Shown piece by piece: positions 9,072 to 45,606 of a stretch of DNA of 45,606 nt. This DNA comes from Candidatus Uhrbacteria bacterium RIFCSPLOWO2_01_FULL_47_25 (GTDB taxonomy: Bacteria > Patescibacteriota > Patescibacteriia > GWA2-46-9): positions 1-45,606 of the forward strand of contig MGEK01000001.1 of assembly GCA_001791325.1 (NCBI GenBank), read 5' to 3'. The notes beneath the pieces are model-generated. The model was not told the origin of the DNA and searched no databases. It saw nothing but the letters and a program-made list of their open reading frames with translations. Position numbers and translations under genes: made by a program. Positions within the stretch are counted from its first letter, which is position 1. The number at the start of each line of letters is the position of its first letter.

Positions 9072-9152
9072 AGTAATTATCTAATTAGTTATTTTATATA
9101 GCCTCGCGATATAATTGTTCATATTTTTTTGTTGGTGCTGGAGAGGAGATTC

Positions 9153-9172
9153 GCCCCGTCATGCGACGGGGC
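9153..9172. repeat. Palindrome inserted in a tRNA T-loop
   Basis: GCCCCGTC-ATGC-GACGGGGC, an 8-bp stem with a 4-base loop. It sits inside the T-loop of the split tRNA-Leu: on the minus strand the loop reads TTCG, then 38 extra bases, then CGAAT, so CG appears on both sides as a possible 2-base duplication. A second small hairpin (TCCAG/CTGGA) lies in the same insertion. Confidence 0.75.
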
Positions 9173-9216
9173 ATCCAGTCGAATGGCTGGACGAACTCCC
9201 ACTCTCTTGCGACCAG

Positions 9217-9329
9217 TCCCGCACCAATCTCGGCGTCTCGCCGTTCTCTAATTGTGGGAATGTAAGGCGAAGCCGCCTCACGGCTATCATCATGCCGTCC
9301 CGGTCATTCATGCAAAGATTGGTGCGGGA
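9217..9329. repeat. Long-range inverted repeat of the CCCGCACC family
   Basis: Arms 9217-9230 (TCCCGCACCAATCT) and 9316-9329 are perfect 14-bp reverse complements, about 85 bases apart. Between them are smaller hairpins (AGGCG-AAGC-CGCCT and an ACGGC/GCCGT stem). The arm ends CCCGCACC recur at 9562, 11586, 45327 and 45524. The segment lies between the intact tRNA-Leu and the 3' half of the broken one. No protein gene is supported here. Confidence 0.75.
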
Positions 9330-9345
9330 TGCGTTCCTCTCCAAG

Positions 9346-9432
9346 TGGTGGGCGTGGTGGGACTTGAACCCACATGGACTTGCGTCCATACGCTCCTGAA
9401 GCGTACGCGTATACCAATTCCGCCACACGCCC
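9346..9432 (-). tRNA. tRNA-Leu (anticodon CAG)
   Basis: 87 bases including an encoded CCA. Read on the minus strand: acceptor GGGCGTG pairs with CACGCCC, followed by A and CCA; TG at positions 8-9; D arm starting GCGGAATTGG; anticodon arm TACGC-TTCAGGA-GCGTA giving CAG; long variable arm TGGAC-GCAA-GTCCA typical of class II tRNAs; T arm GTGGG-TTCAAGT-CCCAC. The flanks are unusual: CTCCAAGTGGT before the gene and its complement after it extend the acceptor stem into an 18-bp perfect inverted repeat. The gene lies inside the remains of another tRNA-Leu and would be expressed from that gene's promoter. Confidence 0.95.
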
Positions 9433-9482
9433 ACCACTTGGAGATAACTAAAGAGCAGTTTCGCCACTCCAGCATCATCTGC

Positions 9483-9511: not shown

Positions 9512-9561
9512 TTACTGCGCAAATTATAGTGGCGGGGTGAACATACGCGTATGCCAGCTTG

Positions 9562-9597
9562 CCCCGCACCTTCCCGCGAAGTGGGTATGGTGCGGGG
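9562..9597. repeat. CCCCGCACC palindrome inside a tRNA-Leu remnant
   Basis: Arms 9562-9570 (CCCCGCACC) and 9589-9597 (GGTGCGGGG) flank an 18-base loop that holds a weak inner stem. On the minus strand it directly follows GGCGGAA of a tRNA-Leu D arm, and tRNA-like sequence (CTGGCATACGC) follows it, so it appears to be inserted in a D-loop. Confidence 0.75.
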
Positions 9598-9612
9598 TTC
9601 CGCCACCAGGGC
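9598..9612 (-). pseudogene. tRNA-Leu 5' fragment
   Basis: On the minus strand GCCCTGG-TG-GCGGAA matches an acceptor strand, positions 8-9 and the beginning of a Leu D arm. It is cut by the CCCCGCACC palindrome; after the palindrome CTGGCATACGC continues like the rest of a D arm. No anticodon, T arm or matching acceptor was found. Confidence 0.5.
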
Positions 9613-9633: not shown

Positions 9634-9651
9634 CAATTCCGCCACATCCCC
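9634..9651 (-). pseudogene. tRNA-Leu 5' fragment
   Basis: On the minus strand GGGGATG-TG-GCGGAATTG matches a tRNA-Leu 5' end up to the D-loop. It then runs into a small inverted repeat (GGAATT-GACG-AATTCC) instead of the rest of a tRNA. It begins 5 bases after the stop of the solute-binding protein gene, which is on the same strand. Confidence 0.45.
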
Positions 9652-9655
9652 GTAT

Positions 9656-11689
9656 TCACCACTTAAATCGTATTTTGGTTTTAACGTACCATTTGTTTAA
9701 ACCATTAAAGCGATCGGCGGGAGTGGCTATTTCATTAAAATTCAATCCCTTAACTTTGTTGCTGACGGCGTAGCGCCGAACGGGCGTAAATAAAAAAACA
9801 GCCGGCACTTCGTTGGAGATGATTTTTTGGAGTTCGGTATAGGCCTGTTTTTCTATTTCATCGTTAGTGGCTCTGCGTCCGCGTTCAATGGCCGCATCTG
9901 CTTCATGATTACTGAACAGCGACAAGTTTAAACCCGGATCAACTCTTTGTGAAGAGTGCCAGAACGCGTATGGATCGTACGTGGCTCCATAACCTATGGT
10001 GTAGAGTAGCGCTTCGTAAGCGCGCGGGCGCAAAACGGTTCTCTGTACATTATCCGGCGTGGAGGGAGATACCAAATCAATTTTTGTTTCTATGCCGAGA
10101 CGCCGCCATTCGTCCTGAATAAATCGGCCGATGGTTCTATCCGGCTCGCGGTCTATGACCGTGAGAGTGATATTTAGTGTTTCTCCTTTTTTATTTTTGC
10201 GGATAGCGCCAATTTCTTCCCAACCAGCTTTGTTCAATAAAGCCTCGGGGTCTTCTTTCGCGGCAACATCTTTGCCATTTTGTCCCCCCATTTGATTTCC
10301 AATTATCATCGCTTCGTTGATAAATACTTCCGTTACTAGTCGTCGTTTGTCTATGGCATTTTTAAGCGCTCGTCTAACTGTTACGTCTTCAATAGGCGAG
10401 GATTGATTTAGATTAAAAAAGATGACGGTATTTGCGCGAAGCTTAAGTTCACGAATTGTTAATTGTTTGTTGCCCTTAAGTTGCGCCGCGCTAGATTGTG
10501 ATATCATGGACAATCCTTCAACACTTTGGTTACCAAGAGCCTCAAAGGCTTGAGTTTCATCTGGATAGAATTTGAAAGTGAGTCGGTCAATAAACGGTCG
10601 CGCCGTGTCCTCTTGGCCAATGGTATCGGCAGGATTTAGAATATACAATTTTATATTGCCGTTGCTATCTCTTTCCAAGGAATTAAATTGCCACGGGCCG
10701 TTGCCAATCGGTTGTATATTTTCAGTTCGTCCCCGCCACTGGTCGCGCGGTACCTCTTCCCAGATGTGCTCTGGAATAATGCCCGTGGCGAGGAGGTTAA
10801 GAAATCCCTTGTATGGGTCTTTAAGCGTGAAACGAACGGTTCGTTCATCAATTTTTTCAATGGCGATATTTCGGAAACTGGGCCGTAGCGGACTTTTTAC
10901 ATCAGGATCAGAGATACTGGCAAAAGTAAAAACGACATCGTCGGCTGTAAGTGGTTCATTATTGTGCCAATTTAATCCTTCGCGAAGCGTAACAGTATAT
11001 ATTCGTCCGTCTGCGCTAATCGTATAACTCTCGGCCAGGTCAAGTTCTATACCAAGGTTTTCATTGTATCTGAATAATCCGGAGAAAATGAGGCGGGTGA
11101 GATCATTGTCAACAGCCGAATTTGCGGCAAAAATCGGGTTAATGAATTCGGGCTGACCAATCAGCGCTTCAGTGTAGGAACCGCCGCGGGCTGGCAGAGC
11201 CACAATATGCGCGAGGAGGCGGCTGGAGACGAGCCACATTGCCGCCACTACAATTACTATGGCGCAACCAGTAAGAATTTTTTTTTCTAGTTTTGTAAAG
11301 ATTCGTCCGCAGTGCCTAAGTTGTTTTAGGGTTGGCCATTTTTTTGGATTTAAAGAAAATATAAGCTGCCGCTCCAAATCAGCCGTGCTGCGGATGGCCT
11401 GTCCGGAAAGATTCAAAAAACGTTTCAGTTTATCCCGCCAGCCGACAGGCAGGGATTGTTGTTCAGCCGTTGCGTCAGCTTCCGGCTGAAACGTTTCTGT
11501 GGAGTCCCACGGGGGTACCCGCCCGACTGGGTCGTTCGGACGGGTACCTGTGTCACCTTTCGTTTCGTGGTTCCGTGGGGCGGAACCCCGCACCCCGCCG
11601 CGGCGGGGTGCGGGGGTTAATGATTCAGGCGTTAATGGCGATTTGTCATCGTCATTGATGATATTATCTTGTTTTGTTGGCGGCCGCAC
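9656..11689 (-). CDS. Family 5 extracellular solute-binding protein (DppA/OppA type), membrane-anchored
   Basis: 677 residues from a GTG at 11689; no closer ATG exists before residue about 150, so the start is uncertain. Residues 150-175 (ILTGCAIVIVVAAMWLV) form one membrane helix. The rest is a periplasmic-binding-protein type 2 fold of the peptide/nickel family: GGSYTEALIGQPEFINPIF, LAESYTISADGRIYTVTLREGLNWHNNEPLTADDV (shown here in part by its family core TADDVVFTF), and a C-terminal domain ending VKTKIRFKW. The family binds oligopeptides or metals for ABC import, but no permease or ATPase gene is nearby, so in this organism the role is open. The first 90 residues are low-complexity (TPAPRRGGVRG, TGTRPNDPVGRVP) and encoded by several DNA palindromes, so that part looks like inserted repeat sequence. 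secG lies just upstream on the same strand. Confidence 0.88.
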   Translation of the reverse strand: MRPPTKQDNIINDDDKSPLTPESLTPAPRRGGVRGSAPRNHETKGDTGTRPNDPVGRVPPWDSTETFQPEADATAEQQSLPVGWRDKLKRFLNLSGQAIRSTADLERQLIFSLNPKKWPTLKQLRHCGRIFTKLEKKILTGCAIVIVVAAMWLVSSRLLAHIVALPARGGSYTEALIGQPEFINPIFAANSAVDNDLTRLIFSGLFRYNENLGIELDLAESYTISADGRIYTVTLREGLNWHNNEPLTADDVVFTFASISDPDVKSPLRPSFRNIAIEKIDERTVRFTLKDPYKGFLNLLATGIIPEHIWEEVPRDQWRGRTENIQPIGNGPWQFNSLERDSNGNIKLYILNPADTIGQEDTARPFIDRLTFKFYPDETQAFEALGNQSVEGLSMISQSSAAQLKGNKQLTIRELKLRANTVIFFNLNQSSPIEDVTVRRALKNAIDKRRLVTEVFINEAMIIGNQMGGQNGKDVAAKEDPEALLNKAGWEEIGAIRKNKKGETLNITLTVIDREPDRTIGRFIQDEWRRLGIETKIDLVSPSTPDNVQRTVLRPRAYEALLYTIGYGATYDPYAFWHSSQRVDPGLNLSLFSNHEADAAIERGRRATNDEIEKQAYTELQKIISNEVPAVFLFTPVRRYAVSNKVKGLNFNEIATPADRFNGLNKWYVKTKIRFKW
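11514..11548. repeat. Palindrome inside the solute-binding protein gene
   Basis: GGTACCCGCCCGA (11514-11526) pairs with 11536-11548 with one mismatch. It encodes part of the disordered N-terminus (around RPNDPVGRVP), ahead of the membrane helix. Confidence 0.7.
11569..11615. repeat. Two adjoining palindromes inside the solute-binding protein gene
   Basis: A 7-bp hairpin (GGTTCCG-TGGGG-CGGAACC, 11569-11587) abuts a perfect 30-bp palindrome (11586-11615) whose half-site is CCCCGCACCCCGCCG. The outer CCCCGCACC is the same sequence that ends the palindromes in the tRNA loci. It is translated as APRRGGVRG. Confidence 0.8.
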
Positions 11690-45435: not shown

Positions 45436-45472
45436 GGTGGGGTGGCAGAGTGGTTGAATGGGACGGGTCTTG
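45436..45472 (+). pseudogene. tRNA-Ser 5' half, broken at the anticodon loop
   Basis: GGTGGGG-TG-GCAGAGTGGTTGAATGG is an acceptor strand, positions 8-9 and a Ser-type D arm. The anticodon arm starts CGGGTCTTG and then runs into TCCCGCAG instead of the normal AAAACCG. No variable or T arm follows before the next 5' half at 45487. Confidence 0.65.
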
Positions 45473-45486
45473 TCCCGCAGTACGGC

Positions 45487-45523
45487 GGAGAGGTGACAGA
45501 GCGGTTTAATGTACCGGTCTTGA
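45487..45523 (+). pseudogene. tRNA-Ser(UGA) 5' half, broken at the anticodon loop
   Basis: GGAGAGG-TG-ACAGAGCGGTTTAATG then TACCGGTCTTGAA: acceptor strand, D arm and the anticodon stem through TGA. It then switches to CCCCGCACC, the end of the palindrome family seen at 9562 and 11586. No 3' half is found in the window. Confidence 0.7.
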
Positions 45524-45565
45524 ACCCCGCACCTTTGTAAATCTAAAAGACGTTGGACTTCAGGC

Positions 45566-45606
45566 GGTGGGTTGGCAGAGTGGTTGAATGCACCGGTCTT
45601 GAAAAC
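45566..45606 (+). tRNA. tRNA-Ser(UGA), cut by the window end
   Basis: GGTGGGT-TG-GCAGAGTGGTTGAATG then CACCGGTCTTGAAAAC: acceptor strand, D arm, and anticodon stem CCGGT with loop CTTGAAA (anticodon TGA). Unlike the two copies before it, the sequence continues past the anticodon loop into the expected AC, so this copy may be the intact gene. Confidence 0.8.

Follow-up and report, generated by a model that had tools for sequence, protein, structure and literature searches.

Here, we identify nested tRNA genes in Candidatus Uhrbacteria bacterium RIFCSPLOWO2_01_FULL_47_25 (G000), in which an intact tRNA gene lies within the broken halves of tRNA genes of the same type. The explanation that we favor, and consider likely, is that palindrome-bounded tRNA cassettes insert into the loops of resident tRNA genes of their own type, inactivate and replace them, and that the dead residents pile up as rings. 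The nesting of the pieces, their order, the pairing of the halves, the inverted arms and the before/after pairs between species are direct observations. The window, i.e., the whole stretch of 45,606 nucleotides of contig MGEK01000001.1 analyzed here, contains a tRNA-Leu locus of this kind; an earlier note saw this one locus, which is in fact one of many across the class and not a single-gene accident.

In the proposed mechanism, a cassette would consist of an intact tRNA gene and, on either side of it, inverted arms that extend the acceptor stem into a long hairpin. It would enter a loop of a resident tRNA gene that matches it in type and orientation, killing the resident; the inserted tRNA would take over the resident's job, so that cells with the insert would survive. 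After repeated rounds, 5' halves would be stacked concentrically upstream and 3' halves downstream, and the dead halves would also gather small palindromes in their D-, anticodon- and T-loops. Selection may explain the match in type and orientation, because inserts of another type, or inserts in reverse that lack a promoter, would be lethal in a single-copy gene.

The tRNA-Leu locus is located on the minus strand from 9473 to 9133 (Table 1). The outer tRNA-Leu, ring B, is recognizable from its two ends: GCTGGAG (9473-9467) and CTCCAGC-ACCA (9143-9133) pair 7/7, at exactly the coordinates described before. The T stem GGGAG/CTCCT (9200-9196 and 9148-9144), also reported previously, is rebuilt, with four Watson-Crick pairs and a G.T as the fifth. 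Three inserts split ring B, i.e., the cassette with the inner tRNA-Leu(CAG), insert E and, in the T-loop, a double hairpin of 38 nt. Two of these had been recognized: the whole tRNA-Leu(CAG) between the halves is found by both ARAGORN and Rfam, and the T-loop insertion with CG on both sides is a double hairpin (9191-9154) preceded by TTCG and followed by CGAA. The arms said to extend the inner acceptor stem by 11 bp are present, but are 12 bp long; the full arms (9444-9426 and 9356-9338) span 19 bp and are 100% complementary. The third insert (9329-9217) had not been told apart before, and the rings begin farther upstream than described, with two more tRNA-Leu 5' fragments (9651-9634 and 9607-9538). 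Insert E occupies the expected place of the anticodon arm of ring B, and a Rfam search of its cargo at a relaxed threshold found no recognizable or decayed tRNA. In the tRNA census, the inner gene (9432-9346) is the sole intact Leu(CAG) gene in the genome.

Table 1. Features of the tRNA-Leu and tRNA-Ser loci in the window
Feature	Position	Strand	Evidence or remark
SBP_bac_5 (extracellular solute-binding protein, family 5), anchor gene	9656..11689	-	Pfam 8.8e-58
Ring fragment A, tRNA-Leu 5' end GGGGATGTGGCGGAATTG	9634..9651	-	18/18 identity with 5' end of intact tRNA-Leu(CAG) of G001
Ring fragment C, tRNA-Leu D-arm GGTGGCGGAA ... CTGGCATACGCGTATGTTCA	9538..9607	-	D-loop split by palindrome
Palindrome in D-loop of ring C, CCCCGCACC..GGTGCGGGG and CAAG tag	9597-9562	-	
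Ring B 5' part, acceptor and start of D-arm, GCTGGAGTGGCGAAACTG	9456..9473	-	7/7 pairing with 9143-9137
Inner tRNA cassette, upstream arm TCTCCAAGTGGT	9433..9444	-	With acceptor stem, 19-bp perfect inverted repeat
Intact tRNA-Leu(CAG), living innermost gene	9346..9432	-	ARAGORN; Rfam tRNA 58.5 bits; genome tRNA census
Inner tRNA cassette, downstream arm CTTGGAGA	9338..9345	-	Partner of upstream arm
AACGCATC, between inner cassette and insert E	9335-9328	-	
Insert E, palindrome-bounded, TCCCGCACCAATCT / AGATTGGTGCGGGA	9217..9329	-	14-bp perfect arms; cargo ~85 nt
Ring B variable and T-stem 5' part ACTGGTCGCAAGAGAGTGGGAGTTCG	9192..9217	-	21/21 identity with intact tRNA-Leu(CAG) of G001
Double-hairpin element, 38 nt, in T-loop TTCG^CGAA	9154..9191	-	Related elements elsewhere
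Ring B 3' end CGAATCTCCTCTCCAGC-ACCA	9133..9153	-	Acceptor pairs with 5' part
Nested tRNA-Ser locus, right end of window	45436..45606	+	Rings and start of intact gene
Two broken tRNA-Ser 5' rings	45436-45472, 45487-45529	+	
tRNA-Ser(TGA), first 41 nt, continues in contig C30	45566-45606	+	

The window contains 57 cases of a 7-mer with its complement before NCCA at a distance of 60-400 nt. Thus, the acceptor match of ring B by itself means little, and the case rests on context. The locus as a whole folds more stably than shuffled sequences (z = -9.5), and, given the rings genome-wide and the orthologous comparisons described below, the pattern at the Leu locus is far beyond chance. Relatives of the double hairpin are found in T-loop-like sequence in G044 (tRNA-Ser) and in G026. 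A copy of the double hairpin in the opposite orientation is present in a tRNA-like 3' end adjacent to tRNA-Leu(TAA) (L041, G026:C2:803889-803940). At 11586-11615, in the predicted SBP_bac_5 frame near its start, there is a perfect CCCCGCACCCCGCCGCGGCGGGGTGCGGGG palindrome that belongs to the palindrome family of these loci and is located within a coding gene or just ahead of one.

Using tblastn with the C-terminus of the SBP, we found tRNA-Leu(CAG) directly downstream of the same SBP_bac_5 gene in 12 genomes. In G021, G002 and G047, the gene is uninterrupted and has no D-loop palindromes ahead of it; thus, an unbroken gene is one of the normal states here. G031, G378 and others have rings or interrupted 5' pieces at the site. 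In G001, which belongs to the same genus as G000, the element in the C piece is 96% identical and in the same place, and an intact tRNA-Leu(CAG), with acceptor strands that differ from those of ring B, occupies the position of ring B. Comparison with relatives, as proposed in the earlier note, thus reveals an uninterrupted gene at the same site, after the same SBP gene, while the outer halves are dead here, in agreement with the earlier reading of this locus as a graveyard of insertions.

The genome-wide pattern is the same. G000 has 48 tRNA matches with one intact gene per isoacceptor found, two weak duplicate calls (Gly and Arg) having been set aside; a tRNA-Pyl call was also set aside as an ARAGORN false positive. 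For the ring census, which was built from loci fetched around tRNAs, the 450-nt flanks of 86 intact tRNAs in G000 and G001 were searched for pieces of the same amino-acid type. Concentric order, i.e., 5' parts upstream and 3' parts downstream on the same strand, applies to 71 of the 78 fragments (32 5'-pieces upstream and 39 3'-pieces downstream). The exceptions are one 3'-piece upstream, which is the middle piece of a nested ring, four 5'-pieces downstream and two pieces on the opposite strand; among same-strand pieces, 71/76 are concentric (p ~3e-16 against 1/2). The halves also belong together: 13 split acceptors pair at a mean of 6.5/7 positions compared to 3.2 for cross-locus pairs, and the pieces of a ring often add up to a whole, as in Thr(CGT) (1-35 and 35-73), Val(CAC) (2-39 and 37-74), Gln(TTG) of G001 (1-34, 38-56 and 57-73) and Lys(CTT) (1-30, 26-52 and 50-72). 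The Thr(TGT) locus has four readable layers in which acceptor types alternate. At the right end of the window, the last 85 nt of the contig (C1) overlap exactly with the end of contig C30, and the two contigs probably join at the tRNA-Ser(TGA) locus.

Inverted arms scoring at least 10 frame 20 of 85 tRNAs, compared to 0.3% after shuffling. Many intact tRNAs lie between inverted arms, often CCCCGCACCTT/AAGGTGCGGGG, and Thr, Met, Ile, Val, Pro, Cys and Gly genes have one arm type in common, CCCCGCACCTTT / AAAGGTGCGGGG. Cassettes with the terminal inverted repeats CCCGCACCTT / AAGGTGCGGG are present, with none in the reversed control. Small palindromes lie in the D-, anticodon- and T-loops of dead halves, and short GC-rich imperfect palindromes (CCCCGCAC..GTGCGGGG) are dispersed in 21/57 genomes (four in G000 and three in G001, each read on both strands). 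Among 83 palindrome listings, in which every palindrome is counted on both strands, 17 have CTTG or CCTG before the palindrome (CAAG or CAGG after it on the other strand); directly upstream of the arm, CTTG occurs nine times, CCTG eight times and GTAG twice. GTAG, at only 2/83, was rejected as the tag of the elements; the double hairpin in the T-loop does contain CGTC.

Several lines of evidence bear on whether the rings are dead. Folded as RNA, the 351-nt Leu locus has a z of -9.5 relative to shuffles, and this strong fold counts in favor of functional split tRNAs, in which the nested transcript would be processed, the insert and inner tRNA removed and the outer halves joined. Moreover, removal of the inserts regenerates a tRNA with a normal anticodon that is recognized by ARAGORN in four of eight tested rings (Thr outer, Thr middle, Lys outer and Leu of G156). 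However, the intact tRNA set is already complete, and ring B without its inserts lacks an anticodon arm and is not recognized as a tRNA by ARAGORN. In several rings elsewhere, bases of the anticodon or of a stem are missing at the junction, including the Gln ring of G001 (anticodon bases) and the Thr rings of G068 and G091 (the segment from D-stem to anticodon loop); acceptor mismatches are present in several rings, and truncation is frequent among the outermost ones. We, therefore, regard functional split tRNAs as highly improbable, and the same findings speak against the odd tRNA precursor that the earlier note offered as its other reading. Archaeal tRNA introns and split and permuted tRNAs also involve inserts in tRNA loops, several per gene. 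The loci described here share these loop inserts, but differ in that the complete intact set makes splicing needless and in that junctions have lost bases.

Three comparisons within genera capture loci before and after interruption; dates and direction of replacement in these comparisons rest on two species in a genus, and the genomes compared are mostly fragmented assemblies. First, Gln(TTG) is intact in G000, and its flanks align with those of G001 at 71-73%. In G001, the same gene, with 70/70 remaining bases identical, is split twice. A CCCCGCACCTT hairpin element without a tRNA interrupts its anticodon loop, and a cassette with a different Gln(TTG) interrupts its T-loop (TTCG^AATCC); compared to the intact gene in G000, the T-loop insertion has no target-site duplication. 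Second, Thr(CGT) is intact in G001, while in the ortholog in G000, with aligned flanks, a cassette that carries another Thr(CGT) interrupts the anticodon (TATCG^TAAACC); the outermost D-loop split at this locus is common to both genomes. Third, in genus g51, a dead Thr ring of G052 has a T-loop palindrome that is lacking in the same ring of G110. Altogether, these comparisons favor insertion over tandem duplication of tRNA genes with subsequent random decay of the surplus copies. Some neighboring copies in G112 (Ile) and G029 (Val) are in tandem rather than nested, as tandem duplication would have it, and this counts against insertion of cassettes. However, decay of tandem copies predicts 5' and 3' pieces on either side, whereas a 3' piece lies upstream in only one of 78 cases; it also leaves unexplained that arms pair across the inner gene, that the halves of one ring pair, and that the Gln and Thr splits lie inside an orthologous gene. 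This scenario is, thus, highly unlikely.

Alternatively, the nested genes could have been copied in situ, with template switching during replication at tRNA hairpins or cruciforms making perfect inverted repeats and inner copies without a mobile cassette. In RNA genes, hairpins are known to arise and grow longer through template switching (PMC8794818), and the ring equals the inner gene at Lys (30/30 in the 5' half) and at Pro of G112 (36/36). Because some rings are nearly identical to the inner gene, local copying also occurs. However, inner and outer acceptor stems often differ while each is well paired, as at Leu (GGGCGTG/GCTGGAG), Thr (GCCAGGG/GCCGAGG) and Gln (TTGGGAG/CTCGGGG), unlike a local copy, suggesting that many inner genes were not copied locally. 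Moreover, the same arm sequence is common to unrelated tRNAs and families. Template switching could account for the perfect arms, but not for foreign inner genes, and is unlikely to explain the pattern.

Integrative elements at tRNA genes encode an integrase along with kilobases of other genes, and one end is restored by the attachment repeat. The loci resemble those of integrative elements in that a tRNA gene is targeted and interrupted, the site retains an intact tRNA and displaced pieces remain. The rings might, therefore, be scars of phages or ICEs with tRNA attachment sites, the tRNA having been restored and the bodies deleted. Such elements leave displaced 3' tRNA pieces downstream, two of which were detected in other classes of the phylum. 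However, their pieces would be left on one side, rather than as paired 5' and 3' halves that flank a single gene; the complementary arms on both sides would be unexplained, and the junctions here lie at loops with palindromes. In addition, the unit here measures ~100 nt and consists of a whole tRNA flanked by inverted arms; the inserts between rings, at ~100-300 nt, leave no room for an integrase gene, and inspection by eye of these 100-300 nt revealed no integrase remnants. We consider such scars very unlikely as the origin of the rings.

The tRNA cassettes extend beyond the genus. Cassettes of the form CCCGCACCTT-N72..102-AAGGTGCGGG were found in 14 of 192 genomes of the class and none in the reversed control, and these cassettes are also present in other families of the class. 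Eight of the 16 cassette loci fetched have a tRNA inside (Thr, Arg or Ala), mostly within halves of the same type, e.g., Arg(CCG) in G118, Ala(TGC) in the T-loop in G148 and Thr(GGT) in G052 and G110; for the Thr(CGT) cassettes, the junctions are the same in G068 and G091 (GGTAG^ and ^TTCGTAAAG). In 6/381 class genomes, D-loop palindromes are present at GTGGNGGAA, with none in the reversed control. Ten further class genomes have pieces at 17/58 tRNAs, a biased rate because four of them were picked after a positive pattern match, and 22/27 pieces are concentric. In other classes of the phylum, pieces are found at 3/49 tRNAs, and three regions of E. coli K-12 have no real tRNA pieces, some matches being ARAGORN false positives. 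Scans of IMG/VR yielded no double hairpin and no tRNA cassette; the D-loop pattern was found in one contig, and these scans showed no viral carrier.

Two further observations concern elements of these families in other settings. G000 has CCCGCACCTT/AAGGTGCGGG cassettes with 80-100 nt of non-tRNA cargo away from tRNA loci (L212 and others: G000:C3:15999, C15:1895, C19:292, C19:24747, C23:28859 and C39:58373), and those at C15 and C23 have a cargo sequence in common. In tRNA-Ile of G112 (L228) and tRNA-Val of G029 (L247), the tandem copies share one disabling palindrome, inserted at an identical loop position (D-loop GGTTA^GAGC; T-loop GGTT^AAATCC).

The cassettes may move as hairpin-prone DNA and may be mobilized by a trans-acting enzyme that is lost or unrecognized here; cleavage of a hairpin loop and capture of a hairpin-ended fragment is a possible alternative. 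A Y1 transposase domain (Y1_Tnp, PF01797) gave no matches in G000, G001, G002 and G156. It is present in G026, G043, G044, G110 and G378, with a weak match in G115, and the five Y1-positive class genomes carry such elements. Several findings count against the proposed mechanism: the Y1 domain is absent from G000, G001 and G002, no target-site duplication was seen, the tRNA cassettes are at tRNA loci and not present as the dispersed extra intact copies that free transposition would predict, and some junctions have lost bases.

The elements share features with several known systems. Rickettsia palindromic elements lie inside genes and are tolerated by the host gene. Here, palindromes also lie within genes, but the host tRNA is broken and replaced by the intact inner tRNA that the insert carries. 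As for MITE-type elements, terminal inverted repeats are present, whereas the Gln(TTG) T-loop insertion has no target-site duplication. REP/REPIN palindromes with RAYT (Y1, HUH) transposases are short tagged palindromes that spread as miniature elements (PMC3733652). The likeness lies in hairpin DNA, short tagged palindromes, differing stems in one genome and presumed mobilization in trans; however, the tag here is mostly CYTG/CARG rather than GTAG or CGTC, the elements occupy tRNA loops, in some cases with a whole tRNA as cargo, and the genus lacks a Y1 gene. Mitochondrial double-hairpin and repetitive hairpin elements of fungi and sponges are GC-rich single and double hairpins that spread in small genomes (PMC2800124). 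The T-loop insert is likewise a double hairpin; by contrast, those elements are not known to have tRNA cargo or to replace the host gene (PMC2800124). Among open-access papers, we found no description of nested tRNA genes of the same type. As far as the open-access literature search reaches, the system is, therefore, categorically new in its architecture and replacement logic, but not in its parts.

We tentatively suggest, at somewhat less than even chances, that the cassettes represent a new minimal selfish element with a tRNA gene as its sole cargo. Such an element would insert into the essential tRNA gene that its cargo duplicates, destroy this target and become indispensable; successive invaders would stack as rings, and the element would spread between lineages of the class by DNA uptake or a hairpin-loop-targeting recombinase. 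For annotation, a practical warning follows: tRNA finders report the innermost gene only, and rings break assemblies, as at the right end of the window. If our interpretation is correct, essential tRNA genes across a class of bacteria with reduced genomes turn over via invading cassettes of their own type, a process that would have no counterpart among the known kinds compared here. The rings would then be a layered, readable record of gene replacement, would provide a mechanism for near-neutral, non-homologous replacement of an essential gene, and would pose a concrete search for an enzyme that targets hairpin loops.
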